A stretch of DNA of 52,306 nucleotides from Hydrogenobacter sp. (GTDB taxonomy: Bacteria > Aquificota > Aquificia > Aquificales > Aquificaceae). Made by a program: the position numbers and the translations under genes. The notes below the pieces were generated by a model. It saw only the letters and a program-made list of their open reading frames with translations, was not told the origin of the DNA and did not search any database. Position 1 is the first letter of the stretch. Each line of letters starts with the position of its first letter. The stretch spans positions 1-52,306 of the forward strand of contig JAGDVY010000032.1 in the NCBI GenBank assembly GCA_023255875.1, written 5' to 3'. Positions 24,314-38,358 of the stretch are shown in pieces.

Positions 24314-24397
24314 GCCGGAGTGGCGGAACTGGCAGACGCAGGGGATTCAAAATCCCCCGCCCGAAAGGGCGTGCGGGTTCGAATCCCGCCTCCGGCA
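24314..24397 (+). tRNA. tRNA-Leu (anticodon CAA)
   Basis: An 84-base tRNA folds with acceptor strands GCCGGAG and CTCCGGC, discriminator A, a D arm, an anticodon stem of GGGGA/TCCCC around loop TTCAAAA (anticodon CAA, reading UUG), a long class II variable arm (GCCC GAAA GGGC), and a T arm with GGTTCGAATCC. The long variable arm and the anticodon identify leucine. The 3' CCA is not encoded (A is followed by TAA). The 5' end is only nine bases from the TATAAT box. The stop codon of the gene at 24347-25159 lies in the antisense of the anticodon loop. Confidence 0.97.
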
Positions 24398-25159
24398 TAA
24401 CCTTACCATCTTTATTACCCTTTTCTGAAAGTGGTCAAACTTACTTACCCACTTGTTAGGAACAGCCCTACCTAAAAAGCTATAAAGAACCGCTTTGGCA
24501 TAAAGATCTGGATACACTACAGAGTCATTTGCAATAAAGAGCTTATCATCAAGTTTAGCCCATGCCACCTGATCGCGCCACGTTAAATTTTTCATTACAG
24601 AGCTTTCTACATTATGAGAGATTGTGAAGTAATAGCTCCAATCAGGGTCTTTTAACTTCCACAGCAGTAATGAAAAAGCCCTAAGTCCGCATACACATTC
24701 TATATTATCCACAAGATACTTGAGGTTTGCATTAGGTAGAGCTTTTATAAGTCCGTCCTGATCCTGCAGATAGGCTATTACATAAGCCACATCTTTTAGC
24801 TTTTGGAGATTTTCCTTTACAAGTTGGTAGTCATTAGTTTTTTCTGCATAAAGGTAAATAAGGAAAAGAAAAGTGGCAGCGTAAGCATCCGCAGAGTCAT
24901 ACGTGTACAAAGGGACTTCTGAGTTTTCCGTTATATAATAATCATAAATAGTCCCTGTCAAGCCATACTTATCTGGATAGTTAAGATGATCCAAATACCA
25001 TCTTATGTAGCTTTTGACCTTTTCTGGGTCAGATGGAAGTAGGTCCATTGCGGTAAGGTTTAAAAAATATGGCACTGCATATGAATTGTTGATGATGTCA
25101 AGGACAGGATGGGAAAAAGATATGTTTATAAAAAGCAAAGTTATCAAGATTATTTTCAT
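24347..25159 (-). CDS. Secreted helical protein, six-hairpin glycosidase-like, C-terminus truncated into tRNA antisense
   Basis: This protein of up to 270 residues has a signal peptide (KIILITLLFINISFS). Its helical-pair pattern, with YTYDSADAYAATFLFLIYLYA, YLQDQDGLIKAL and a WRDQVAWAKLDD segment, resembles (alpha/alpha)6-barrel polysaccharide-active enzymes. That assignment is by pattern only. The last 16 or so residues (from LCRRRDSNPHA) are encoded by the antisense of tRNA-Leu, and the stop lies in the anticodon loop. The natural reading is that the gene lost its original 3' end at the tRNA boundary; full six-hairpin enzymes are usually 350 residues or more. It follows the deacetylase by nine bases as last gene of the exopolysaccharide operon. 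Confidence 0.6.
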   Translation of the reverse strand: MKIILITLLFINISFSHPVLDIINNSYAVPYFLNLTAMDLLPSDPEKVKSYIRWYLDHLNYPDKYGLTGTIYDYYITENSEVPLYTYDSADAYAATFLFLIYLYAEKTNDYQLVKENLQKLKDVAYVIAYLQDQDGLIKALPNANLKYLVDNIECVCGLRAFSLLLWKLKDPDWSYYFTISHNVESSVMKNLTWRDQVAWAKLDDKLFIANDSVVYPDLYAKAVLYSFLGRAVPNKWVSKFDHFQKRVIKMVRLCRRRDSNPHALSGGGF

Positions 25160-25168
25160 AACCCTATG

Positions 25169-26977
25169 TTATCGTAATTTGAAAGAAAGGTCAATTTCTT
25201 TAGCATTCTTTTGAAGATAAAAGTAGTAGAAGTGTTCATCCTGAGAAACAAAAATAACTTCTTCTTCTGGAAAACTCAAAATTTTTCCGTAGTGTCTCGG
25301 TATAGCAATAGCTATGTCTTTTAATCCTTCCGGATTTTTGAGTCGCACAACTAATTCATCACCCTTTCTCCCAAAGCTATACTCCGTTTTTAAGAACCTC
25401 AAAAGAAAATCCGCAAAGTAGCTCATGGAGTGGACCTCCAGCAGACCCTCTTTTTCTTTTTGTTGCCAGTAATCAATAGCTTTGAGAATAGCAGAAGGAT
25501 ACAGGGGAATGTCATAAGGATGAGAGTAGAAAAGCCTTATCTGTCTTGTCTTTATAGAAAAATCTGTAAGAGAAGTTAAGAATCCGTAAACTTCTTCTTC
25601 GCTAATACCCTTTTGGTACATTTCGTATAGGGAAGCTGATCTTTCGTAAGGAGTTATAGGAAAGGCTATCACTTTTGATGATACCATCTTACCACTTATA
25701 AAAGTCCTGTTGGGAGAAGAACCACTATCACCCGTATAGTAGTAGGCCACAAAACCGAGCTTTTCAAGGATTTTAGTAGTCTCTGGCTGAGGATGAACAC
25801 CGTTGGGAGCGGAGTATTCCCTTATCTTGTAGCCCGTTATGGACTCAAGACAGCGATTATTCTTTTCAATGTATTCATAGATATCCTTTTCATTTAGCTT
25901 TCCTTCAAGTATTCCATAAGAAAACCAGTTGTGAGCCCATCCACCGTGAGAACCTATAACACCATATGGCATGATCATCTTCACATACCTTTCACCTTTT
26001 CCGCACGCATCAAAGCCAAGATTATCACCTGGCTTGTCCCTGAATGGTCCTGCGGTAATGTGAAGAGAGTACTCCAAACCCTTTCTGAGATAACCTTTTT
26101 CCATCATCATAGGTATAGATATCCAATCAGAATTAGCATCTATGTGCCAGTTAATAACTAACCCCCCTTTACCTTTAGGAGTGTTCACAAGGTGTGGAAC
26201 TTCCACCAGTTTGAAAAGAAAGTATCTTAAGACTGACCTTAGAAACACGTCATCTGAATAAGCCTTAAGGTGTCCAAGGGGCAAAGAAGAGTAGAAAATG
26301 TATCCTTGCCCATATTTGTTCCAAACTAATGCCTTGTATTGACTGCTATCCTTTTTATCCACCACCATTGCGAGAGTTTTTCCACCAAAGCCCCTGTCTT
26401 CTGTTTTGACATAAGGGTAAGTTAACTCTCCATATATATATCCTGTCATAAGTCTGTTTTCCTTATCTAACTTACCTGGTGTAATTTCAATGTCAGTACT
26501 CAAAACTTTCAGGTATCCAACTGAGTAGGCATTGTCTTTAAGTTTATCGTAAAGAATGTAATTAATACCCAGTATGTTACTAAAAAGAGCAGACTTCAGA
26601 TATGCCCCTGCGTGATTCTTAATTCCTACATCGTAAGATATAAAGATACTTCCACCAGCTTTAAGGTAGTCTTCAAACCATTTAACTGAACTTGGATTGA
26701 TATACTGCAAACTCCCATCAGGTAATATTAAGGCAGGCTTGTACTTGGCTAACCTTTGGGGATCTTCTGATAAAAGGGTTTTTACATCTATAAGTCTGTG
26801 GGGTACGCCCTCTTCTTCAAGCACGCTTTTAAAAGCATCCACCTGATAGCCTTCCTCTCCATAAACTACCAGCACTTCTATATTTTTATTCCATCTTAGA
26901 GAATAAAGGGGTAATAGTGTTTTCAAGATGATAAAAAAGGGTATGAGTGTGGCAAAGAGAATAAGTCCCTTTTTCAA
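25169..26977 (-). CDS. Exopolysaccharide deacetylase with N-terminal GATase-like domain
   Basis: This 602-residue protein has an N-terminal membrane anchor (about 4-24). A domain like those of type 1 glutamine amidotransferases follows (VLVVYGEEGYQVDAF, KPALILPDGSLQYI, GGSIFISYDVG; about 35-250). A polysaccharide deacetylase-like barrel comes after (about 270-535) with GGLVINWHIDANSDW, GSHGGWAHNWFSYG and FYSHPYDIPLYPSA, which supply the metal-binding Asp and His residues of NodB-type enzymes. A beta-rich tail closes it. Probably a periplasmic enzyme that N-deacetylates the polymer, comparable in role to PelA or PgaB. Overlaps the bactofilin-like gene by four bases. Confidence 0.75.
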   Translation of the reverse strand: MKKGLILFATLIPFFIILKTLLPLYSLRWNKNIEVLVVYGEEGYQVDAFKSVLEEEGVPHRLIDVKTLLSEDPQRLAKYKPALILPDGSLQYINPSSVKWFEDYLKAGGSIFISYDVGIKNHAGAYLKSALFSNILGINYILYDKLKDNAYSVGYLKVLSTDIEITPGKLDKENRLMTGYIYGELTYPYVKTEDRGFGGKTLAMVVDKKDSSQYKALVWNKYGQGYIFYSSLPLGHLKAYSDDVFLRSVLRYFLFKLVEVPHLVNTPKGKGGLVINWHIDANSDWISIPMMMEKGYLRKGLEYSLHITAGPFRDKPGDNLGFDACGKGERYVKMIMPYGVIGSHGGWAHNWFSYGILEGKLNEKDIYEYIEKNNRCLESITGYKIREYSAPNGVHPQPETTKILEKLGFVAYYYTGDSGSSPNRTFISGKMVSSKVIAFPITPYERSASLYEMYQKGISEEEVYGFLTSLTDFSIKTRQIRLFYSHPYDIPLYPSAILKAIDYWQQKEKEGLLEVHSMSYFADFLLRFLKTEYSFGRKGDELVVRLKNPEGLKDIAIAIPRHYGKILSFPEEEVIFVSQDEHFYYFYLQKNAKEIDLSFKLR

Positions 26978-27906
26978 GGGATTACCTCCACAAGCTTTTC
27001 ACTGTGTAAGTATCCGTAAATCCTAACTGGTCCTTTTATGAATATTTTACCTCTTGCCACTGCTGACTTTACCTTACCCTCAATTCCTATAACTACCCCG
27101 TTTTTAAGAGTTATACTACTTTGACTGAACACATTCCCCTTTATCCATACGTTTCCTTCTATTTGCACATCGCCATCGGAGAAAAGGTCTCCATCTATTA
27201 CAACAGGTCCTTCCTTGTCGCCTATGGTTATACTGCCTTTCACACTAAAACTTCCATTTATATTTATAGTCCTTCCTTCTTGTGTGGGATTTTTATCAAG
27301 AAGAGGCTTATCTGATGTGTCAATCTTTTTGGCATAAGCCCTTTTAAAGGTTGTTCTGTCTCTTATTTTTACTTCCAGAGCATAAACACTCACACCTAAG
27401 TCTGCCTTAGACTTTATGATGAGATTTCCTTCAACATGCACCCATCTCACAACGCTCAGTGGTGCCTCTACAAAACAGTCACCCTTTACATACAGACTTC
27501 TCAGGACGCATTCACTTAAAAAAACAGCATTTCCAAATACCACTAACTCTCTTCTGAAGGTATGGCTATGATTGAAAACAGCATCCTGTGTAAAAATTAT
27601 TGAGGTATGCACATTAGTTTCCAAGAGGTCTTCACTGTTGAGAACACCCACCCATTCTTCTCTTTTTAACTTCAGTTGTATATATGCAAGTTGAAGCTTA
27701 CTTATGTTTTGAATGTTTAAATCCTCAAAGGCTTTAGTAAGAAGTTTAATAAAACTTTTTCCAAAATAGTCAGGCTCCTTTGTACGATGTTGGTCTATAG
27801 GAATAGGGTCTTTGTCTCTTTTGAAGATTATCTCAAGGATAGAAGGTAAAAAAGGTAAAAGTAAAAGGAAGATAAAGGCTATGATTAACAGAAGTACCTT
27901 AGGCAT
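26974..27906 (-). CDS. Membrane-anchored bactofilin-like beta-solenoid protein
   Basis: This 310-residue protein has one N-terminal transmembrane helix (VLLLIIAFIFLLLLPFLPSIL). A long stretch of short repeating beta turns follows (GSFSVKGSITIGD, GDLFSDGDVQIEGNVWIKGNVFSQSSITLKNG), the pattern of bactofilin/polymer-forming beta-helices. Unlike typical bactofilins, which are cytoplasmic and about 120-180 residues, it is twice as long and anchored, and its topology puts the solenoid probably outside the cytoplasm. It sits between the synthase and the deacetylase genes, overlapping both, which argues for a structural role in the exopolysaccharide export complex. The function is inferred from context. 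Confidence 0.65.
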   Translation of the reverse strand: MPKVLLLIIAFIFLLLLPFLPSILEIIFKRDKDPIPIDQHRTKEPDYFGKSFIKLLTKAFEDLNIQNISKLQLAYIQLKLKREEWVGVLNSEDLLETNVHTSIIFTQDAVFNHSHTFRRELVVFGNAVFLSECVLRSLYVKGDCFVEAPLSVVRWVHVEGNLIIKSKADLGVSVYALEVKIRDRTTFKRAYAKKIDTSDKPLLDKNPTQEGRTININGSFSVKGSITIGDKEGPVVIDGDLFSDGDVQIEGNVWIKGNVFSQSSITLKNGVVIGIEGKVKSAVARGKIFIKGPVRIYGYLHSEKLVEVIP

Positions 27907-29158
27907 TTCTAAATCTCTCAGTTTTTTGCCAAATTACCGTTCTTTTGGTTATGAGGTCTATAAGCGCATCAATAAAACCCAAAGACGCATATATAATGTT
28001 GAAAATGAACTCAAAGAACATCAAAGGCAAAAGAAAAACCCTTTCTTTTACACCATCAAGCACCAGCGCAGTGCCTATCTCAAAGAAAGGAGCAAAGTTC
28101 CCAAAAGAGTTGTGAGCAAATATGAAAAGTAAGAATAGGTAGGAGCCTATTATCTGCATTTCACCGAGGAAAAAGAGGATCAAAGAATCAATCAGACCCA
28201 AAGAGATCAAGAAAGGTTGCAGATATATCATAAGGAGTAAAAGACCATCTACCTTCTGCCAAAAGCTGAGTTTTTTAGAGAGAAGCGTGGGTAGAAGATA
28301 TTTAAACATCACCTGATTGTGTCCCCTTGACCATCTTCTTAACTGTCTTGCTCTCACATTCCAATCCTCTGGTGCTTCTTCATAACACTCTGCAATATTT
28401 GCATAAGCGACTTTATATCCATTTAAATAAAGCTTATAGGTTAATTCTGTGTCTTCGGCAAGAATTTTTGCATCAAAACCGCCTAATTTTATCACTATAT
28501 CCTTTCTAAAGCCCCCAACTGTGCCTCCATATTGAGGTATTAAACCTAAGTTATACCTTGCCTGTTGGTCCACTTGATAGCCACCTGTTCTTTCTATATC
28601 AAGAAGTCTTGTAAGCAAGTTCTTTCCAGCATTTATAGGGACAACTCTTCCCATGACCGCACCTACCTGCGGATCTTTGAAGGCTACAGCTAAAGTCCTA
28701 ATTTGTCCTTTGGGTGGAAGGTAATCAGCATCATAAACTATTATAACCTCCCCTTTTGCTATTTTTAGAGCGTCGTTTAAGCCGTTCTGTTTGCCCCGTG
28801 GTAAGTCTCCATACCTGTGTAAAGGTTTTATGAAAGGATACTTTTGAGCATACTCATCAAGGATCTCTTTGGTTCTATCCGTTGAGTGGTCGTTTATAGG
28901 TATGATCTCTAACTTTTCTTTTGGGTAGTCCGCTTCCACAAGAAGGTCCAATATATATCTGGCTACTTTCTCTTCGTTATGCATGGGAACTAAAACAGAT
29001 ACAGTAGGTAGGTCTTCGTCCAACACGTCTTGATAGTAAAGCCTCTGTTTGCCAAAAGCCCTGTTTAGAGTAAAAAAGTAATGCCTTATTAGGTACATAA
29101 GAAGGATAAACATCAGCAATATCATGTATGCCTTCAAAAGAAATATCAGAACCCCCAT
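27899..29158 (-). CDS. Processive family 2 glycosyltransferase (exopolysaccharide synthase)
   Basis: This inner-membrane glycosyltransferase has transmembrane helices before and after a cytoplasmic GT-A domain. Motifs include VSVLVPMHNEEKVARYIL, IPINDHSTDRT, the DxD-like VYDADYLP, LAEDTELTYKLYLNGY, and the Q-x-x-R-W motif as QLRRWSRGHNQV, which marks processive synthases such as cellulose, hyaluronan and PgaC enzymes. No PilZ domain is present. The frame opens at a TTG (29212) without a ribosome-binding site; the ATG at 29158, preceded by AGGAAG, is preferred and gives 419 residues. It polymerises an unknown sugar, and the operon's WecB suggests a HexNAc donor. Confidence 0.82.
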   Translation of the reverse strand: MGVLIFLLKAYMILLMFILLMYLIRHYFFTLNRAFGKQRLYYQDVLDEDLPTVSVLVPMHNEEKVARYILDLLVEADYPKEKLEIIPINDHSTDRTKEILDEYAQKYPFIKPLHRYGDLPRGKQNGLNDALKIAKGEVIIVYDADYLPPKGQIRTLAVAFKDPQVGAVMGRVVPINAGKNLLTRLLDIERTGGYQVDQQARYNLGLIPQYGGTVGGFRKDIVIKLGGFDAKILAEDTELTYKLYLNGYKVAYANIAECYEEAPEDWNVRARQLRRWSRGHNQVMFKYLLPTLLSKKLSFWQKVDGLLLLMIYLQPFLISLGLIDSLILFFLGEMQIIGSYLFLLFIFAHNSFGNFAPFFEIGTALVLDGVKERVFLLPLMFFEFIFNIIYASLGFIDALIDLITKRTVIWQKTERFRNA

Positions 29159-29961
29159 TGGTAGAAAGCTTCCTGCCTTTTTTGAAGAAGCCTTAAGGTC
29201 ATATAAAGACAAAGGGAGTAAAAAGAAACTATGTATATAAAGTCCAAAAGGGGACCAAAAATGAAAAACATAGCAGGCATGTGTATGTAAGAAAACTCTT
29301 TTAGAACATAAACAAAGAATATGTATCTGATGCCACCAAAAACTGAAGAGTAGATAAGAGTAAGAAGTATGGTAAATGCATTAAAAAGTAGGTTAAGCGG
29401 ACTAAAGGTAAATACGGACAAAGAAAGACCAAGAACAAGAGGTATAAAGATGAAAACTCCAGTTTGTTGGAGTAGGTAAAGTATGGCAAAGTCTCTTTCT
29501 GTGTAAGGAAATTTCTCTAAAAAAAGTAAAAAGTAAAAAGAAGATACAAAATACACAAAGGCTATGTACATAAGCCATGCGGAAACATACTTAGGTAGCG
29601 GATTGCTTTTTCTCGTTAGAAGCAGTAAAGATAAAAGGCTTAAAATAAGGTAGATAAAGGATTCTTGCAAAGTGGGCAATCTTCCTTGTGATACAGAATA
29701 CTCAAGCGTAAGTTTTAGGAATTTATAGCTTTTGGTATAGCTATCTTCCAAAACTCTTTTTGTTATGCTAGATAACACCTTAAAGTAATCTTCAAGAAGA
29801 AAAATCACTAAAAATTCAAATACGAACAGCAAAAGCGTAAGCTGAAGTAGAAAAAGATACCTGTTGAATTTTAAAACCCTACCAAAGCGTGCGTAACCTA
29901 TTACTGGTTTTTCTACCTTAGAAATCTTTGAATAATCCTGCGGATAAGCCATACTTTTCAT
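29146..29961 (-). CDS. Multi-spanning membrane protein of the exopolysaccharide operon
   Basis: This 271-residue protein has about six transmembrane segments (FLLQLTLLLFVFEFLVIFLL, then several after residue 100) and a loop of about 45 residues between the first and second. I do not recognise a family. Being placed between the YaiO-like barrel and the glycosyltransferase, with overlapping ends on both sides, it is probably an inner-membrane component of polymer synthesis or export. The first ATG has AAAGG only two bases upstream; the fourth codon is also ATG, so the start is uncertain by three residues. Confidence 0.65.
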   Translation of the reverse strand: MKSMAYPQDYSKISKVEKPVIGYARFGRVLKFNRYLFLLQLTLLLFVFEFLVIFLLEDYFKVLSSITKRVLEDSYTKSYKFLKLTLEYSVSQGRLPTLQESFIYLILSLLSLLLLTRKSNPLPKYVSAWLMYIAFVYFVSSFYFLLFLEKFPYTERDFAILYLLQQTGVFIFIPLVLGLSLSVFTFSPLNLLFNAFTILLTLIYSSVFGGIRYIFFVYVLKEFSYIHMPAMFFIFGPLLDFIYIVSFYSLCLYMTLRLLQKRQEAFYQWGF

Positions 29962-30694
29962 AACCTTTGCTTAATTTGAAGTAGCTTATGCTTCCAAATA
30001 ATCCCATATCCTTTCTTATCCAATGTCTGTGAGAGAGTGCTACATAAAAAGCGTTCTGTCTGACTTCCTGAGGGTTTGCCAAGTAGGTGGCAAGGTATGC
30101 CTGCTTACCATAGGAGATATCCAGGTAAGTCCAACTTTTGCCTTCCTGTCCTATACCCAAGCTTATAAGATCTGAGGAAGAACTTACGCTTCCTGGATCG
30201 CTTCTGTTGAAAAAGTGTTTGTAAGTTATGACAAAGTCCCTTCCGTAGTAAGTGATGCCCGGATAGACTATGTAGTCCTTATGCACATCGTGATACTTTA
30301 TGTAAGTAAAACCCAAAGAAGGCACAATATTCTTTTGCTCACCCACCTTGAAGTTAAACTCGTGGTCTAACCTATACTTGGGAAGGTAAGGACTGTTGCT
30401 CCCAAAAGAGAGACTACTGTATGTGTATAGCCACGGACTCCAGTCTTTATAAGCTCCTATGACCCCGAGTGTAGCATCACCCTCGTGCTTTCTGCTAAAA
30501 ACACTACCTTCCAAAAAGTAAGTAAAATCACTAAAGGGTCTATGGTAAAGTCTTAGAAAACCACTTTTCCAACTGCCGTAAGTGGCATGTGGGCTAAGGT
30601 GTTCATAACTTCCTCCCGCTTCAAGTCTGAACTCAAAGGCATAAGCGCTAAGACTAATAAGTATCGCTAAGGGAGTTAACCTTAGCACACTCAT
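29918..30694 (-). CDS. YaiO-like outer-membrane beta-barrel protein
   Basis: This 258-residue protein has a clear signal peptide (LTPLAILISLSAYAF), then amphipathic alternating strands rich in Tyr, Ser and Gly. It ends in SAGLFKDF with a C-terminal aromatic residue, as outer-membrane barrels do. Sequence flavour and size match the YaiO family, known from the E. coli yaiO-yaiS-yaiP group, which also pairs an outer-membrane protein with a deacetylase and a GT2 enzyme. It is a candidate export pore for the polymer. The signal peptide supports the start even though it overlaps wecB by 41 bases. Confidence 0.65.
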   Translation of the reverse strand: MSVLRLTPLAILISLSAYAFEFRLEAGGSYEHLSPHATYGSWKSGFLRLYHRPFSDFTYFLEGSVFSRKHEGDATLGVIGAYKDWSPWLYTYSSLSFGSNSPYLPKYRLDHEFNFKVGEQKNIVPSLGFTYIKYHDVHKDYIVYPGITYYGRDFVITYKHFFNRSDPGSVSSSSDLISLGIGQEGKSWTYLDISYGKQAYLATYLANPQEVRQNAFYVALSHRHWIRKDMGLFGSISYFKLSKGYEKYGLSAGLFKDF

Positions 30695-31850
30695 ACAGAT
30701 CCCCCTTGTAATCTTTCTTATAATTTAATATAAAGTTCTTTACTTCTTCACAAAGAAGGAAGTTCTTTATCCTTTCGCTTGCCTTTCCGTCTCCGTAAGG
30801 ATTGTCAAAGGAGAGTTTTTCGTAATACTCCAGATTGCTGTAAGTTTTTTCAAACTCTTCTACTATTTTTTCTTTTTCAGTACCTACAACTTTTCCTAAA
30901 CCCACATCAACCACTTCAAGTCTTTCTGAAACGGTTCTTGTTATGAGGACAGGTTTTCTTAAAGTGCAAGCCTCTTCTTGAATGCCTCCTGAGTCAGTAA
31001 TTATCAATTTTGATTTCTCCAATAGGTAAAGGGTTTGTGGATAGGTGAGGGGTTCTAAGAAAACCACATTGTTTGGTAGCTGTGTAAAGCCCTCAAGAAT
31101 GCTTTTTCTTACTTGGGGATTTTTGTGCAAAGACCAGAGGAAGAGAAGGTGAGGAAACCTTTGTGCAAGCTCAAGCACCGCGTCCCTTATATTCTTCATG
31201 GGTTCTCCTATATTTTCCCTCCTGTGAGAAGTTATGAAAATCAAACCATCAAAAGTGTCCATGTCCCTACTTATCTGCTCTTGTAGCTGGCCTTTGATCT
31301 TATCTCTATCAAGGAGTTTAAGTGCGGTTTGTACCGCATCTACTACCGTATTGCCTGTTAGTACTATGCGATCCTTCGGAAAGCCTTCTCTTATAAGGTT
31401 TTCTACTGCTCTCTGTGTAGGGGCAAAAAGCACATCAGATAGCTCATCTGTAAGTTTTCTAAACATTTCCTCTGGAAATGGAGAGAACTTGTCATGACTT
31501 CTTAGACCTGCCTCAACATGCAAAACGGGTATTTTACTCAAAAAGGCGGTATAAGCTCCCATGTAGCAACTAAGCGTATCTCCTTGAACTATCACACAGT
31601 GGGGTTTATAATCCTCTAAAACTCTTTTCAAGGACTCTGCCATACAGGCTGTATTCTCAATAAGATCTGGATTCATACAGTTAAGAAAGTCTGCATCTAT
31701 ACGGAAAAACTCAAGAACATGTTTGAGGAGCTCATCGTGCTGTCCTGTGGCAACTACCTTAAGCTCAAAACCGCTTTCCTTTAGGGCATTAATTACTGGT
31801 GCAAGCTTTATGGCTTCTGGCCTGGTGCCTAAAACCACGAGCACTTTCAT
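30654..31850 (-). CDS. wecB: UDP-N-acetylglucosamine 2-epimerase
   Basis: This 398-residue enzyme interconverts UDP-GlcNAc and UDP-ManNAc. Hallmarks are VLVVLGTRPEAIKLAPVI at the N-terminus, VQGDTLSCYMGAYTAF, HVEAGLRS, TSHRRENIGEPM and LIITDSGGIQEEACTLRKPVLI. It is slightly longer than usual, because a lysine-rich tail of about 25 residues extends past the conserved end. It is the first large gene of the exopolysaccharide operon, preceded by GGAGGGAGGT and by the small gene at 31898-32062. No UDP-ManNAc dehydrogenase (WecC) is nearby, so the product is probably used as ManNAc. Confidence 0.92.
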   Translation of the reverse strand: MKVLVVLGTRPEAIKLAPVINALKESGFELKVVATGQHDELLKHVLEFFRIDADFLNCMNPDLIENTACMAESLKRVLEDYKPHCVIVQGDTLSCYMGAYTAFLSKIPVLHVEAGLRSHDKFSPFPEEMFRKLTDELSDVLFAPTQRAVENLIREGFPKDRIVLTGNTVVDAVQTALKLLDRDKIKGQLQEQISRDMDTFDGLIFITSHRRENIGEPMKNIRDAVLELAQRFPHLLFLWSLHKNPQVRKSILEGFTQLPNNVVFLEPLTYPQTLYLLEKSKLIITDSGGIQEEACTLRKPVLITRTVSERLEVVDVGLGKVVGTEKEKIVEEFEKTYSNLEYYEKLSFDNPYGDGKASERIKNFLLCEEVKNFILNYKKDYKGDLYECAKVNSLSDTY

Positions 31851-31897
31851 AAGCTATACCTCCCTCCAAAACTTGCTTACATTCCTAAATGCCCTTA

Positions 31898-32062
31898 TCA
31901 AAGGTTTTTTGCTGTGTTTTCCGTGGTCTTGCTGTTCTCAGATGATCTTAATTTCTGCATGTATAGCCTTAGTTTTAAACCCTCTCTTATTTTCATGCGC
32001 TCCTTTTGTACGTTTTGGATATACTCTTCCTTAAGCATTTTTACTAAGTTTAAAATGCTCAT
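31898..32062 (-). CDS. Small basic protein, 54 residues, at the head of the exopolysaccharide operon
   Basis: Inside the 345-base stretch between wecB and the pilus operon, an open frame runs from ATG 32062 to TGA 31898. It encodes a lysine/glutamate-rich, probably helical protein starting MSILNLVKMLKEEYIQ and ending KTTENTAKNL. TATAAT (32076-32071) lies eight bases before the ATG, the same leaderless layout as other genes here, and a fair minus-35 is 17 bases further. It lies 47 bases upstream of wecB. Coding is supported by promoter, start spacing and composition. The function is unknown; a coiled regulator or a leader peptide are options. Confidence 0.5.
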   Translation of the reverse strand: MSILNLVKMLKEEYIQNVQKERMKIREGLKLRLYMQKLRSSENSKTTENTAKNL

Positions 32063-32195: not shown

Positions 32196-32726
32196 TTATG
32201 GTGTATAGACTGCCTCTATGCGTGCATTATGTACATTTTGTGGATCATTTACTTCTGATATTATGGAGAATATGAAACCTTTGTTACCGGGTGGAAGTTT
32301 GCTGTAAGCCACGCCTGTGATGGCATAACCAGAAGGTGGTCTATAACCTGCAAAGCATACCTTTACATTATTGTTAAACACACCCGAATAGCCCTTTAGC
32401 CTAAATTGAAGGCGTATATTACAACAGCAGTTGTAGGTTAAAGACCCAGCAACAGAACATGGTGGATTTCCATCGGGACAAGGCAGATTGTAAACGATCC
32501 TGTCAAAAACATCGCTGGTTATGGCGTAGTTTACCCCAGATATGGCAGCTTCCCTTGCAGAAGAATAAATTCTTACCGCTTCAGCGCTTTCAAAAAGTCT
32601 TGTGAGCATAAAGTACAAACCACCCAAAAGAATGAGCACTATAACCGCAGTTATAAGTGCGGATATAAGGGCTACACCTCTTACCTTATGTTTTTCAATG
32701 GTATATCCACCTCTACCGTAGACCAT
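32196..32726 (-). CDS. PilX-like minor pilin / pilus assembly protein
   Basis: The start is taken as the ATG at 32726, which has GGAGGT at ideal spacing; the frame is open 15 codons further but without support. The 176-residue product has the basic-then-hydrophobic start of PilX proteins (VRGVALISALITAVIVLILLGG). It lacks the canonical Glu5-type prepilin site of its neighbours. It continues with YSSAREAAISGVNYAIT and two pairs of close cysteines. Last gene of the pilus tip operon, overlapping the PilW-like gene by 46 bases. Confidence 0.7.
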   Translation of the reverse strand: MVYGRGGYTIEKHKVRGVALISALITAVIVLILLGGLYFMLTRLFESAEAVRIYSSAREAAISGVNYAITSDVFDRIVYNLPCPDGNPPCSVAGSLTYNCCCNIRLQFRLKGYSGVFNNNVKVCFAGYRPPSGYAITGVAYSKLPPGNKGFIFSIISEVNDPQNVHNARIEAVYTP

Positions 32727-33583
32727 CTGTAATACCTCCATTCTGATGGAATAGCTATGGATCCCCCACAATTTGCGCTAAAGTTGTTTATGTCTGCCTG
32801 CGTGCTTTGTCTTCCACCTACCTGCATCATTATGCAGAGCCTTATACCGTAGAGGTTATTTATGTCAGAATCAGGTACGTAGTCCAAATAGCCTTGGCTT
32901 GTTATGTACCTTACCCTAAAAGCTCCTACGCAATCCACAAGGGGTTGAGGTGAGTCCGAACCAACTCCTTTGAAAAGGGTACGTGTTTCATTGGCACAAA
33001 GCTTGGATGCGTTGGAGCTTGTGTTGAGGTAGTACCGCGTGACAAAGTCCGCAGGATAGTTTTTGTCTCCTACATAAAATACTAAAGCATAAACACAGTT
33101 TGAGGTTATGTCTCTTTTTGTTATGGGTTCAAGACAGAGAACTTTTGAGGTGTCTGTGGGTAGTCCCCAGTTTGCGCCTGAGCAAGGTCTAAAAAGATAA
33201 TCCCTTGCTTGCGTGGTGATGTTTTTGTTTTGGTCTGTTATTCCCCAGCATCCTATGGAAGTGTCCTGTCTTGTGGCTAGGCTCAAAAAGTCTATTTCAC
33301 TACCGTTTATTGCTATGACTGCGTTGGATTTTCGGACATTAGAAAGATCTGTGCCGTTATTTAAAACTTTTAGCCTGCTTCTGTCTATGCCAAAACCCAC
33401 CGTTGAGAGCTCCATCACCAAGTTAGAGACTATGAACTGCACATCTTGTTCTTGCTTTGCTACCAGTGCCTGAGATGTACCTTTTTGGAATATGTCCCTG
33501 AAGGCATAAAAAACTCCCCCTGAGATAATAAGGAGTATGGCAATGCCTATTAAAAGCTCCACAAGGGTAAATCCCTTCCTCAT
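32681..33583 (-). CDS. PilW-like minor pilin
   Basis: This 300-residue prepilin begins MRKGFTLVELLIGIAILLI: a short basic leader, cleavage after Gly, N-methylatable Phe, Glu5 and a hydrophobic helix. A large globular domain follows with a phage-like arrangement of cysteines and segments such as VSNLVMELSTVGFGIDRS, typical of PilW. The size and the position after a PilV-like gene agree. ATGA overlap with the upstream gene shows co-translation. Confidence 0.85.
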   Translation of the reverse strand: MRKGFTLVELLIGIAILLIISGGVFYAFRDIFQKGTSQALVAKQEQDVQFIVSNLVMELSTVGFGIDRSRLKVLNNGTDLSNVRKSNAVIAINGSEIDFLSLATRQDTSIGCWGITDQNKNITTQARDYLFRPCSGANWGLPTDTSKVLCLEPITKRDITSNCVYALVFYVGDKNYPADFVTRYYLNTSSNASKLCANETRTLFKGVGSDSPQPLVDCVGAFRVRYITSQGYLDYVPDSDINNLYGIRLCIMMQVGGRQSTQADINNFSANCGGSIAIPSEWRYYRWSTVEVDIPLKNIR

Positions 33584-34173
33584 GGCTTCCTCTTTATAAT
33601 AAGACTACTTTCATACTTATAGCGCCCATTTATTGGACTAAAGTACCATGCGGTTATTCCATATGCTCTGCCTATTTCCCCACCACCTGCAGTGGTAATA
33701 GTTGCCACGGTTAAAGCGGTATATACGGTCCTATTGCCCACAAGGCTATATTTGGTAAGATGCGTATAGCTAATGCAGGTTAAGGTTGCTACGGTGGGTC
33801 CTACCCAAAGCCAACTTGCGGTGCTCATGGGAGCACTCTTGTAGTTGTTGTTGTTTCCGCTGTAAGGATCGTAAAAGTCTGGTATGCCATCGCCATCGTT
33901 GTCTATGTTTTCAAAACTGCACTGGTTAGTAGAAATATCGCATACCGCACTTCCAAAGGAGTATCCCACAGGTGAGCATGTAGCATTGTATGGAATGCTT
34001 TCCAAGTATCCGCTCCAGTCTTTTACCGCCTTGTCCATAAGGTCCTTCATCCTTGCATCCATGGAAAACTGTATGTACTTGATAAGCCCAGCCAAAAAGC
34101 CTATCATCACAAACATGAGGATCAGCATAGCTATGAGAAGCTCTATAAGGCTAAAGCCCTTATTGAGTTTCAT
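33580..34173 (-). CDS. PilV-like minor pilin
   Basis: This 197-residue prepilin starts MKLNKGFSLIELLIAMLILMFVM, with the G/F cleavage site and Glu5, then DARMKDLMDKAVKDW. PilV proteins of this size prime the pilus tip together with FimT/GspH, PilW, PilX and PilY1. A segment with DNDGDGIPDFYDPYSG looks like a calcium-binding loop of the thrombospondin-3 type, which is unusual for a minor pilin. It overlaps the FimT-like gene by 14 bases. Confidence 0.8.
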   Translation of the reverse strand: MKLNKGFSLIELLIAMLILMFVMIGFLAGLIKYIQFSMDARMKDLMDKAVKDWSGYLESIPYNATCSPVGYSFGSAVCDISTNQCSFENIDNDGDGIPDFYDPYSGNNNNYKSAPMSTASWLWVGPTVATLTCISYTHLTKYSLVGNRTVYTALTVATITTAGGGEIGRAYGITAWYFSPINGRYKYESSLIIKRKP

Positions 34174-34639
34174 ACCTTATCCTCCCAAACCTGTCAATGT
34201 ACACTATCCTCTTACTTCCTATACTGTTTTGCAAAACTACCGAGCACATACCAAGACCGCAGGTTGAATCTCTTGGATAGCCCTTTTTATCAAAGGTGAT
34301 AGTGTTGCAACCGCTTTTAGGCAGAAGGCTCACCCCGGGTTCCGCATTGAAGACCCTTATCCCTTCACCTGGGTCAAACTGACAGTTAGAGTTATCATCT
34401 CTAAAAAGCGTGTAGGTATTACCCGAGATAAAAACACCCCAAGGTCTTTGTCCCCTTCCTGTTATAGCGTATAAACGTGCAGTTTCGTAAGCGCTCATAA
34501 GACCATCTGTTGTGGCTTTTAGTCTTTGGTTTAGGACCAAGTTTCTTAGCCACAAAAAGGCAAAGCTAGAAAGGATCAGAAGAATCACTATAACTATAAG
34601 AAGCTCCATAAGGGTAAAGCCTTTTACTTTTCTATCCAT
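34160..34639 (-). CDS. FimT/GspH-like minor pilin
   Basis: This 159-residue prepilin begins MDRKVKGFTLMELLIVIVILLIL, with a Gly/Phe prepilin cleavage site and Glu5. The domain after the helix (ATTDGLMSAYETARLYAITGRGQRPWGVFIS) fits the FimT/GspH fold with its pilin-like beta sandwich. Four cysteines lie in the C-terminal half. It overlaps the PilY1 gene by 16 bases and is the first pilin gene after it. Confidence 0.82.
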   Translation of the reverse strand: MDRKVKGFTLMELLIVIVILLILSSFAFLWLRNLVLNQRLKATTDGLMSAYETARLYAITGRGQRPWGVFISGNTYTLFRDDNSNCQFDPGEGIRVFNAEPGVSLLPKSGCNTITFDKKGYPRDSTCGLGMCSVVLQNSIGSKRIVYIDRFGRIRYETQ

Positions 34640-37600
34640 AGCAAGAACCTACCTTCATAGTTTGAAGTTGCTTGTTGTGGCACTTTAACTATAACACCCG
34701 TAGAAACCTGTAGGAAAGCGTAGAAGTCTTTACCAGAGCCTGCAGTGATCTGGAAGGGCTGTCCGAAGGGTGGCACACCTCTGCCTATGTCAACGGATTG
34801 CTGTACTTGATTGCCTACGATGGCATTAGGAGATAGCACGGTGGGTCTTGGGAAGGGTGTTCCACTCTTGTAGTAAAGGGAATACAATTTTGAGCTTCCT
34901 TCCATAGCGCACATGTCCTGAGGTAGCACCGCAGAAAGCACATTTACCACACCACCAAACACCGTAGGCTGGGAGTAGATAGCTTCGTTGTTTAGCTTTA
35001 TGTACCATCCCACAGGAGCTTCTGGAGGTATAGTACCTTGAGCGTCTGTCACTACTGTTTTGAACCCACATCCACTTGAGTCACATATGCACATTTGGCT
35101 GGTTTCTTTAATGGTAACGCTTGTAGTTTGTCCTGTAACATCAGTGAGTGAGCTTAGATTTGTTGATCCTGTAGCGTTCCAGTTTGGATCTTTAAATCCC
35201 ACAAGGTAGTTGGTGTAGCTTATGTTTTTGTCTGCGTTGCTCAGATACTTACCCGTGCCAAAGAATACCCAGAGGTTATTATTTTCATCAAGAGTGTAGT
35301 TGGGCGCTCCAAAGACTGGTGCAGGAGAAGAGCCAAAGCTAAAAGCTTGGCTAACTGTCCAACTGCTGAGGTTTAGCCTGTAGAGAGCTCCAAACACACC
35401 CCCCGAGGATCTACTGCCATAAACTCCAAAGTATGCCACATCATCAGTGTAGTCGTTATTTACATCCACAGGCATGATATCTCCTATTGCTACGCTGGCA
35501 CCGCTTACTGGGACATTTACAGTTCGTGCCAAGCTACCATCATTCAGGTTAAAGACAAATATCTTCGGATTGTTGGTGTAGGACTCTCCTGCGTTGCTGT
35601 CTATGCTTGTAGGACCACTACCTACAAGCACATACCAGTTGTCACCCACCTTTGTCACCGCTGGGAAAGAGAGGGTAAGAGTATTGTCAGGAAGTTGCTT
35701 TTCCCAAAGAAGAGTGGGCTTTCCGCTAAGGTTGTTGTTTAGCCAGTCAGTCAGGTCAAGTACAAACACAGAGGAGCTAAAGGTTCCTGCAGAAGTGTCT
35801 ATAGCTTTGCCACCAAAACCCATAGCACCTACAAGGATGGTGCGCCACTGATTGTTTATCTTTGCATCAAGGATCATCACCCTGTAGTCCACAGTAGGTA
35901 CATGGCAGTAGTTGGGGTTTCCATACCACAGAAGGTAAGGAATTGCGGACTTGGGAATAAAGGCAAACTCCTCTTTTCCTACCAAACTGTTTCCGCTATC
36001 AGTTTTGGAGTTTACGAGCTTTATAGGATTGTTAGGGTCTGCCAACTGATCTATGTATCCTATCCTGAAGATGTGGAGCATGCCATCGTTGGCGGATATG
36101 GCAGCAATGACAGGTCTATTTTTGTATTGATCTGAGTTTATGTATTGGTAGTAGCTATAGTCATCATATTTGAAGTGATAGTTCGCAAGAGGGTCTGGTC
36201 CCGCAATGGCTGGGCTGGAGCTTATAATGTCTCCCAGCTTCCAAACTTTATCTCCAGACATTCCCAAAGCGGAGCAAAAGTCTTTTACATCTACAGTTCT
36301 CATTCTTTGAACATACGGATAATTACAGCCAGAGGGACTGTCCTCACCCCGCAGATACCTTATGATACAGCTTGCATCTGCAGGAACACAGCTTCCTCCA
36401 CCAGAGCAATCACCGTTATTCCTGCATAGCACAGAAGGGTCATTGCTACAGACTTTCCAAATGTTTGCAAAGTAGCTTGCCTCTCCTGTGGTTAAAGAGG
36501 TTAGAACTCCATCTTTGTTGAAATAGATCTTCCTGTCTGAGGGGTCTGTGTTGGCAAGATAGCACCCACCATCAAAGACAGGGGCAAGCTCATTTATACT
36601 CTTTGTCCCACTTGTGGTGCAAGTGGACATGTTGGTTATCATAGCTGCTTTGGTTTGGTTTTCGTTTGTGTCAAAGAAAAGTTGGAATATGGTATCCACC
36701 GCAAGGTTCAAAACTTTGTTTAGATTGGTATCCTCACGAAGATTTTGCATGGTATCTACCCAGAAGGCTTTTATAAAGCCAAGCCAAGAGACCTGAGTGC
36801 CATCAGGTTTTACATAGCTAGGTAAAAAGTAGGGCTGGATCACCACCTGAGACACGCTTGACCTTCCTGCCAGAGTAGCAACAGTAGAACCAGAGGATGC
36901 ACGCTTGAGTATATCAAGTATGGCACTAAGTATGGCATTCTTTATCTGGTTTGCATCTGAGGCTGAGTAGAAAGTGTCTGGAAGTCTATCGGAGTTTTTA
37001 TCCCAATCTGGAGAAGAAGGCGGAAGAGGAGTACATCCGCTACCCTTGCCACTACCACAATCATCCATCCAACAAGTGCCCTGTGGGTATCCTGACAAGC
37101 TGTCTGGCCAGTTGCGTCCTGATGTGTCAAAAGAGCCATACATGGCAACATTCTTTAAAGACAGCTCTCCTGTCCCACCCAAGAAAAGACCTATACCGTA
37201 TATAGCTTCCACCCTTGACTTTATACCCGTTGGTGCGTTAGTAAAACCCTTTTTGTGGAGCCAGTAAGCTGGGACCACAGGGTCTGCAGAGTTAGATTCA
37301 AAACCAGTATCTATAGAGCAAGAAGGTGTGTTCCACTGTCCATCAGTCATTAAGATCACAAAGTTTTTGGCACAGGGAACGAGCTTAAGTTCGTTTCCTT
37401 CACATTGTCCATTTCCGTTTGAATCAAAACATTGATACATAGGGTTTCTCCATTCATCTCCTCCACCTTGTTGAGGTTTGAGTCCTCCATATTGGGGATC
37501 TTTTTGTGCAAAATAGTTATAAACATCCCACAAGGCTGGAGCTGTAGGCGTATCACCATCGGGCTCTTCTTGATTTACCGCGGTTATTGTATTTTTGTAT

Positions 37601-38358
37601 GGATTTAGGGCATCGTAGTTATTGCTTCCGGTAAAGTCTCCTATGTACACGCTGGCTTTTCCTCTTACACCATTACCACTGAATAACATAACTCCCATGC
37701 GTGGCTTGAAGGAAAGGTTTTTGAGCTGGAACAAGAGCGCAGAATTTATCCTGCTCCATGGGACTTTTACCCTCACACCGTTGGTTGATTTAAGTATGCA
37801 TCCATAACTGTCACAACTTACTGAACTTCCAGGCATTCCATAGGTTTCTGGATCACAATTCTTTATATTGTTCTGTGGTGAACTGTTATTTACTTGTTGA
37901 CAGCTATCGGGAGTTCCACCCGTGAGAGCCCACCTCACGAGGTCTATGCGACTCATGTAGAGAAAGTTAAGACAGCTACCTTGATAGATATTCTTCGTGT
38001 TAATATCACTTTGTGTTTTTGGACAAGATTCTGGCGTTCCTGTAGTTTCTTCCCAGTAGCCTTGTGATGAATTGTATCTATACACTTTATTGGGATCAAA
38101 ATAACCTTCCTCTGTGCCTTTATAAGTCCAGCCACAGCCAGAAGGAGAGGAACAACAGCCACTCTTATCACTATTGGGATTGTAGGCGCACCAAGACATA
38201 GATCCGCTTACATCTATAAGAAGCATCACGTTTGGTGAAACTGTCTGTCCCACATAAGGTGGAACATAGCAGTAGTTTTGCATGCTAGCTGCATTCACCT
38301 GAGGACTTCTTATAAAAGCCAGTGTGATCAAGAATAATACAAACAACAGCCTCCTCAT
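34624..38358 (-). CDS. pilY1: PilY1-like pilus tip protein with VWA domain
   Basis: This 1244-residue secreted protein has a signal peptide cleaved near VNA/ASM (about 23). A VWA domain follows with the MIDAS motif D49-V-S-G-S-M-S, then a long loop-rich segment with many cysteines and aspartate-rich loops such as DSNGNGQCEGNE. A C-terminal PilY1 beta-propeller (about 690-1200) includes VLDLTDWLNNN, FPAVTKVGDNWYVLVGSG and a calcium-site loop DVNNDYTDDVAYFG near 962-975. PilY1 proteins sit at the type IV pilus tip and act in adhesion, surface sensing and pilus extension. The operon with four minor pilins supports this. The count of cysteines implies periplasmic disulfide formation. Confidence 0.88.
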   Translation of the reverse strand: MRRLLFVLFLITLAFIRSPQVNAASMQNYCYVPPYVGQTVSPNVMLLIDVSGSMSWCAYNPNSDKSGCCSSPSGCGWTYKGTEEGYFDPNKVYRYNSSQGYWEETTGTPESCPKTQSDINTKNIYQGSCLNFLYMSRIDLVRWALTGGTPDSCQQVNNSSPQNNIKNCDPETYGMPGSSVSCDSYGCILKSTNGVRVKVPWSRINSALLFQLKNLSFKPRMGVMLFSGNGVRGKASVYIGDFTGSNNYDALNPYKNTITAVNQEEPDGDTPTAPALWDVYNYFAQKDPQYGGLKPQQGGGDEWRNPMYQCFDSNGNGQCEGNELKLVPCAKNFVILMTDGQWNTPSCSIDTGFESNSADPVVPAYWLHKKGFTNAPTGIKSRVEAIYGIGLFLGGTGELSLKNVAMYGSFDTSGRNWPDSLSGYPQGTCWMDDCGSGKGSGCTPLPPSSPDWDKNSDRLPDTFYSASDANQIKNAILSAILDILKRASSGSTVATLAGRSSVSQVVIQPYFLPSYVKPDGTQVSWLGFIKAFWVDTMQNLREDTNLNKVLNLAVDTIFQLFFDTNENQTKAAMITNMSTCTTSGTKSINELAPVFDGGCYLANTDPSDRKIYFNKDGVLTSLTTGEASYFANIWKVCSNDPSVLCRNNGDCSGGGSCVPADASCIIRYLRGEDSPSGCNYPYVQRMRTVDVKDFCSALGMSGDKVWKLGDIISSSPAIAGPDPLANYHFKYDDYSYYQYINSDQYKNRPVIAAISANDGMLHIFRIGYIDQLADPNNPIKLVNSKTDSGNSLVGKEEFAFIPKSAIPYLLWYGNPNYCHVPTVDYRVMILDAKINNQWRTILVGAMGFGGKAIDTSAGTFSSSVFVLDLTDWLNNNLSGKPTLLWEKQLPDNTLTLSFPAVTKVGDNWYVLVGSGPTSIDSNAGESYTNNPKIFVFNLNDGSLARTVNVPVSGASVAIGDIMPVDVNNDYTDDVAYFGVYGSRSSGGVFGALYRLNLSSWTVSQAFSFGSSPAPVFGAPNYTLDENNNLWVFFGTGKYLSNADKNISYTNYLVGFKDPNWNATGSTNLSSLTDVTGQTTSVTIKETSQMCICDSSGCGFKTVVTDAQGTIPPEAPVGWYIKLNNEAIYSQPTVFGGVVNVLSAVLPQDMCAMEGSSKLYSLYYKSGTPFPRPTVLSPNAIVGNQVQQSVDIGRGVPPFGQPFQITAGSGKDFYAFLQVSTGVIVKVPQQATSNYEGRFLLWIEK

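Follow-up and report, generated by a model that had tools for sequence, protein, structure and literature searches.

A candidate exopolysaccharide operon with a membrane-anchored bactofilin-like solenoid in Hydrogenobacter

Relation to described systems

Synthase-dependent exopolysaccharide systems are defined by a synthase, a co-polymerase, periplasmic modifiers, and an outer-membrane pore; a 2020 survey covered five such polymers and mentioned neither YaiO nor bactofilins (PMC7112194). Bactofilin polymers line the membrane from the inside and recruit a synthase bound to the membrane, and forms anchored by a transmembrane (TM) helix account for about 3.2% of bactofilins (PMC12448750). We analyzed a 52,306-nucleotide stretch of DNA from Hydrogenobacter sp. 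(the window), which contains an operon of seven genes (Table 1). No description of this operon was found in the open-licence papers searched. We assign a probability of roughly 0.7 to the reading that it encodes an undescribed synthase-dependent exopolysaccharide system with a cytoplasm-facing, bactofilin-like scaffold beside the synthase.

The sequence-only reading had likened the locus to the Escherichia coli yaiS-yaiP-yaiX-yaiO group. This held for the YaiO barrel (BLASTP E 1e-9) and for YaiP, which is related to the family 2 glycosyltransferase (GT2) of the operon (E 4e-15), but not for YaiS, a PIG-L deacetylase (PF02585) rather than one of the NodB/CE4-like type. In both cases a barrel, a GT2, a deacetylase, and a beta-solenoid gene lie in one cluster; the solenoid gene of the yai group, yaiX, which encodes a hexapeptide protein and sits between the GT2 and YaiO genes, had been missed. 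Unlike the operon, the yai group has neither the six-TM protein (TM6) nor WecB. YaiX was considered as a homologue of the operon's solenoid and rejected (hhalign probability 7.6). By sequence comparison, the yai group is an analogue sharing YaiO and GT2 ancestry. We also observed that yaiX (loci L059 and L057) is intact in E. coli C21 and broken by IS2 in MG1655, while yaiS is truncated in C21.

With the PNAG systems (pgaABCD/icaADBC) the operon shares a QxxRW GT2, NodB/CE4-type deacetylase motifs, and an outer-membrane barrel. The nearest NCBIfam family of the GT2 is indeed PgaC/IcaA (TIGR03937), but at 133 bits the match falls far under the cut-off of 422, and no protein matched the PgaB or PgaD families. 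Nothing in PNAG systems corresponds to the bactofilin-like solenoid or to TM6. The cellulose synthase family (BcsA/CelA) was more distant still (TIGR03030, 66 bits versus a cut-off of 699).

The resemblance to Pel (pelABCDEFG) lies in the deacetylase-like protein. PelA combines an alpha/beta ThuA-like domain, an H-x-D deacetylase, and a beta-rich end, and the domain order of the operon's protein, with weak ThuA-like matches, recalls PelA minus its hydrolase domain (PMC12022489). However, the operon's protein lacks a GH114 domain, the cluster has no PelF-type or PelB-type gene, and neither PelG nor a GH114 domain was found in this genome. When PelA was compared as a candidate homologue, the catalytic motifs aligned, but the domain-level profile score did not exceed that of shuffled controls. 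The operon is thus very unlikely to be a divergent form of a Pel, PNAG, or cellulose operon, a reading largely refuted by the family cut-offs, by which it is none of the three. Other Aquificota commonly carry complete Pel operons (PelD, PelF-type, PelG, PelA, and PelB families; L122-L128), although Pel is missing from the window's genus, and GH114 matches in proteins of about 900 amino acids (aa) occur in dozens of Aquificota genomes, none of them in the window's genus.

Layout and gene products of the operon

The seven open reading frames (ORFs) are present on the minus strand where the sequence-only reading had placed them (24347-31850). That reading called all seven overlapping, which is true of five of the six junctions: wecB/YaiO (41 bp), YaiO/TM6 (44 bp), TM6/GT2 (67 bp), GT2/solenoid (8 bp), and solenoid/deacetylase (4 bp). 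The deacetylase and last genes are separated by a 9-bp gap. The range originally drawn, 24347-32062, stands for its seven-gene part; positions 31851-32062 hold merely a 54-codon ORF outside the conserved unit. This small ORF (about 31898-32062) was rejected as an operon member, as it is not kept beside wecB in other copies. A sigma-70-like site at 32099-32071 fits the operon in position, but it was discarded as a promoter candidate because the scan yields fewer sites than chance.

Table 1. Features of the operon, in window coordinates
Feature	Position	Strand	Basis
wecB, non-hydrolysing UDP-GlcNAc 2-epimerase, 398 aa	30654..31850	-	TIGR00236
YaiO-family outer-membrane beta-barrel, candidate export pore	29918..30694	-	PF19413, TIGR04390
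TM6, orphan six- to seven-TM protein, 271 aa	29146..29961	-	conserved neighbourhood
GT2 polysaccharide synthase (predicted), 437 aa	27899..29212	-	PF00535
QLRRW motif, GT2 residues 290-294	28331..28345	-	
Membrane-anchored bactofilin-like beta-solenoid, 310 aa	26974..27906	-	PF04519 near cut-off; AF2
Single TM helix of the solenoid protein, residues 5-23, predicted N-out/C-in	27838..27894	-	
Membrane-anchored periplasmic deacetylase-like protein, 602 aa	25169..26977	-	PF01522 near cut-off
Secreted orphan protein with signal peptide (last gene)	24347..25159	-	orphan

The final 17 codons of the last gene (24347-24397, minus strand) are the antisense of a tRNA-Leu(CAA) gene (24314-24397, plus strand), an overlap found also in G014 (L065). 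The operon of G031 has another location, and its last gene ends (L025:12388-12420) in sequence that resembles a decayed 3' end of the same tRNA-Leu; judging by this likeness, the operon may bear a scar left when it moved away from a tRNA-linked site. Immediately upstream of the window's operon (32196-38358) lie a gene for a PilY1/PilC-like tip protein (1,244 aa) and genes resembling those of minor type IV pilins, which were not found beside the other operon copies read.

The GT2 carries the DAD, ED, and QxxRW motifs and matches PF00535 (E 1.7e-26), so that the earlier call of a GT2 with QxxRW was borne out (Q290LRRW294); the assignment is firm at the domain level only. The three motifs are kept in all GT2 copies examined. 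One N-terminal TM and several C-terminal TMs flank the domain, and by its sequence the protein qualifies as a predicted inner-membrane processive synthase. The top PDB profile matches of the domain were the family 2 glycosyltransferases 6yv7-6yv9 (E 4.7e-27), with cellulose synthase behind them. This ranking fits a non-processive enzyme, whose product would be a surface glycolipid or a short lipid-linked oligosaccharide deacetylated in the periplasm, and QxxRW is found also in some glycolipid GT2 enzymes. Such a product is unlikely in view of the TMs on both sides of the domain, the PgaC/IcaA family as closest characterized relative, and the outer-membrane barrel and deacetylase-like protein that constantly accompany the GT2.

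TM6 gave nothing convincing in Pfam, NCBIfam, or PDB searches, yet R25, P96, FPY 151-153, G236, and Y248 are conserved across phyla. No PilZ or GGDEF family match, and hence no c-di-GMP module, was detected in the seven proteins; in this set we found neither a c-di-GMP-binding domain nor a recognized co-polymerase. As for the outer-membrane pore and its usual TPR partner, the YaiO barrel is present, as previously read (PF19413, E 1.3e-32; TIGR04390, E 2.4e-54), and the window's cluster has no TPR gene.

The identification of WecB was confirmed by TIGR00236 (373.7 bits, far over the cut-off of 210). It is the sole WecB-family gene in this genome, and a genome of the same genus that lacks the operon (G039) has none, which makes UDP-ManNAc a plausible substrate here, suggesting that the polymer contains ManNAc/HexNAc. 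The wecB gene is present in the Aquificota copies, in G258 and G435, and on a Cupriavidus plasmid. Since several core copies have no neighboring wecB, use of UDP-ManNAc would not be general, and the proposed ManNAc in the product gains some support for this operon but not for the whole family.

The deacetylase-like protein scored 22.6 against PF01522 (cut-off, 23.1), and nine of ten members matched this family (best E 5.5e-5). Its domain order is a TM, a weak GATase/ThuA-like domain, a NodB/CE4-like domain, and a predicted beta-rich C terminus. The GATase domain of the sequence-only reading is reflected in GH42M/ThuA-like matches below cut-off, but not beyond these. The motifs NWHID, GSHGGWAH, YSAPNG, and RLFYSHP appear here; relatives show N(W/Y)H(I/V/L)D, GSHGGWxH, YSAPxG, and RLxYxH in NodB/CE4 order, kept in nearly all copies, with one residue more than usual separating the two histidines. 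Two homologues vary at catalytic positions (L064, HIE and TDGGW; L068, HLC). These proteins start with a signal anchor or a signal peptide, and their sequences are compatible with periplasmic modification by a putative deacetylase. An AF2 model built with four close sequences reached a pLDDT of 40. Searching viral contigs with the deacetylase profile gave no match.

The last gene carries a signal peptide, and one relative has a lipoprotein-like signal. Neither Pfam, NCBIfam, nor the PDB yielded a convincing match, and the six-hairpin label given to it earlier found no family or profile support; a relationship to BcsZ/GH8 was rejected as well (hhalign probability 0.1). The conserved residues are D73, YDS(A/V)D 87-91, E154, and YPD 216-218, and the product is possibly a glycan-cleaving enzyme.

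The solenoid protein

The solenoid protein scored 27.3 bits against the bactofilin family PF04519 as annotated and 28.1 bits in a genome search, around the cut-off of 27.9. PF04519 matches 6 of 11 solenoid relatives (best E 3.6e-9). The AF2 model (mean pLDDT, 77) has strands at residues 102-196 and 214-309 with a break at about 201-210; Foldseek of this model against the PDB returned nothing at E <= 0.001. Two Thermocrinis variants (L037:3837-4679 and L036:4064-4906) are shortened by about 30 residues in the linker that joins the two solenoid segments, which indicates that this linker is dispensable. The genome search revealed no other bactofilins in this genome. The protein resembles bactofilins such as BacA and TtBac in its near-cut-off PF04519 match, its beta-solenoid model, and its membrane attachment with a predicted cytoplasmic solenoid. 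It differs from them in that a genuine TM helix anchors it, a long region separates this TM from the solenoid, the solenoid has an additional N-terminal segment, and the gene is tied to an exopolysaccharide operon.

A left-handed-helix sugar acyltransferase, as a counterpart of YaiX and not a scaffold, would account for hexapeptide-type matches in 2 of the 11 homologues (best E 6.3e-5), for profile matches to PDB acetyltransferases at E 0.0015, and for the position of the E. coli hexapeptide protein between GT2 and YaiO. It is nevertheless doubtful: more members have bactofilin as their best family, and with lower E values, the alignments show no invariant histidine, and homology between YaiX and the solenoid is not detectable.

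In almost every homologue, K/R residues are in excess after the TM; in the G169 homologue, the TM is preceded by a signal peptide and by a linker rich in proline. Both signals argue for an N-out anchor and point to a solenoid facing the cytoplasm, as in bactofilins. They weigh against a periplasmic solenoid bridging the synthase to YaiO in place of a TPR protein, a rather improbable arrangement to which the lack of a TPR protein beside the core in the window and most relatives would lend itself. Beta-helical modules do serve in periplasmic machines. However, G547 has a solenoid and, in addition, a separate upstream TPR-like gene. We therefore retain the bactofilin-like reading, in which the solenoid would be a scaffold beside the synthase.

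Recurrence of the unit and the proposed machine

Co-occurrence of the solenoid with the GT2 and YaiO-like genes in other genomes, suggested as a check on the sequence-only reading, was strongly evident: the same neighbors recur across phyla, well beyond chance. The core consists of TM6, GT2, solenoid, and deacetylase; YaiO accompanies it in nearly every case; WecB and the last gene are optional. Within the phylum, a search with the solenoid recovered it from other Aquificota. A scan of genome contigs with only the solenoid as query led no further than Thermocrinis metagenome-assembled genomes. The deacetylase profile identified relatives outside the phylum and on Cupriavidus plasmid pMTS1, and the core recurs in at least five bacterial phyla.

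The order wecB-YaiO-TM6-GT2-solenoid-deacetylase-last gene is identically kept by the same genus, a further genus of its family, and a second Aquificota family, with differing flanking genes. Four other phyla and the Cupriavidus plasmid have a reshuffled core. G258 has TM6-GT2-solenoid-deacetylase-last-wecB-YaiO; G169 has TM6-GT2-solenoid-deacetylase-last-YaiO, an order shared by G547, where the solenoid frame is apparently interrupted. YaiO-TM6-GT2-solenoid-deacetylase was seen in G224, G549, G550, and two copies in G551, and wecB-deacetylase-GT2-solenoid-YaiO-TM6 on pMTS1. In G212, solenoid-deacetylase-TM6-GT2 stands without YaiO, wecB, or the last gene adjacent.

Among 391 genomes, the deacetylase profile matched 18, the TM6 profile 17, and both 16 (Fisher p 2.5e-25, a value inflated by kinship of the genomes); the pairing independently holds in each of five phyla. 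The three genomes not shared are G014 and G145, in both of which the cluster runs off a contig end, and G128, whose genome is 70% complete. Within phyla, the deacetylase was found in 3/7 (phylum of G212), 2/7 (G169), 4/7 (G224), and 2/148 (G258) genomes. In the GT2 tree, G539, of the same phylum as G212, groups with G063 of the Aquificota with full support, which indicates that the unit has moved between phyla. Several divergent operon copies lie on short contigs in G079 (L021-L024); these and the two copies in G551 (L089-L090) are either strain mixtures or true duplications. The deacetylase is split in L084 (G541) and L085 (G539), and G541 also has a truncated solenoid and TM6; these copies are decaying operons of one phylum.

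The operon had been proposed to serve synthesis of a processive-type GT2 product, its periplasmic modification, and its outer-membrane export, which our comparisons support. From the gene content, the conservation of the unit and of its motifs, and the topology signals, we infer the enzymatic activities, polymer chemistry, and roles of TM6 and the scaffold as follows. WecB, where present, would supply UDP-ManNAc. The GT2 would polymerize an amino-sugar chain, putatively of HexNAc, and move it across the inner membrane, with TM6 probably as its membrane partner. The membrane-anchored deacetylase-like protein, together with the secreted orphan where present, would trim the chain in the periplasm, and the YaiO barrel would be its exit through the outer membrane, so that the polymer would be deacetylated and secreted. 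The bactofilin-like solenoid, held by its TM on the cytoplasmic face, may cluster or position the synthase, a task that bactofilins perform for enzymes of the cell wall. Against this machine count the missing c-di-GMP module and TPR gene, the G212 core without a neighboring YaiO, the catalytic variants L064 and L068, the solenoid score just under the bactofilin cut-off, and the absence of a significant Foldseek match.

It is about an even bet that the operon represents a further class of synthase-dependent machine beyond the five surveyed in 2020, with a dedicated and obligatory TM-anchored, bactofilin-like scaffold, an orphan membrane protein as partner of the synthase, and inter-phylum transfer. 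If true, it would add another synthase-dependent polymer to those five (PMC7112194). A bactofilin-like cytoskeletal module would then be tied directly to exopolysaccharide synthesis. The thermophile lineages carrying the operon are known for streamers and mats. Two orphan protein families are defined here through their constant neighborhood, within a four-gene core. The operon may also offer a frame for the uncharacterized yai genes of E. coli, where a barrel, a GT2, a deacetylase, and a solenoid likewise cluster.
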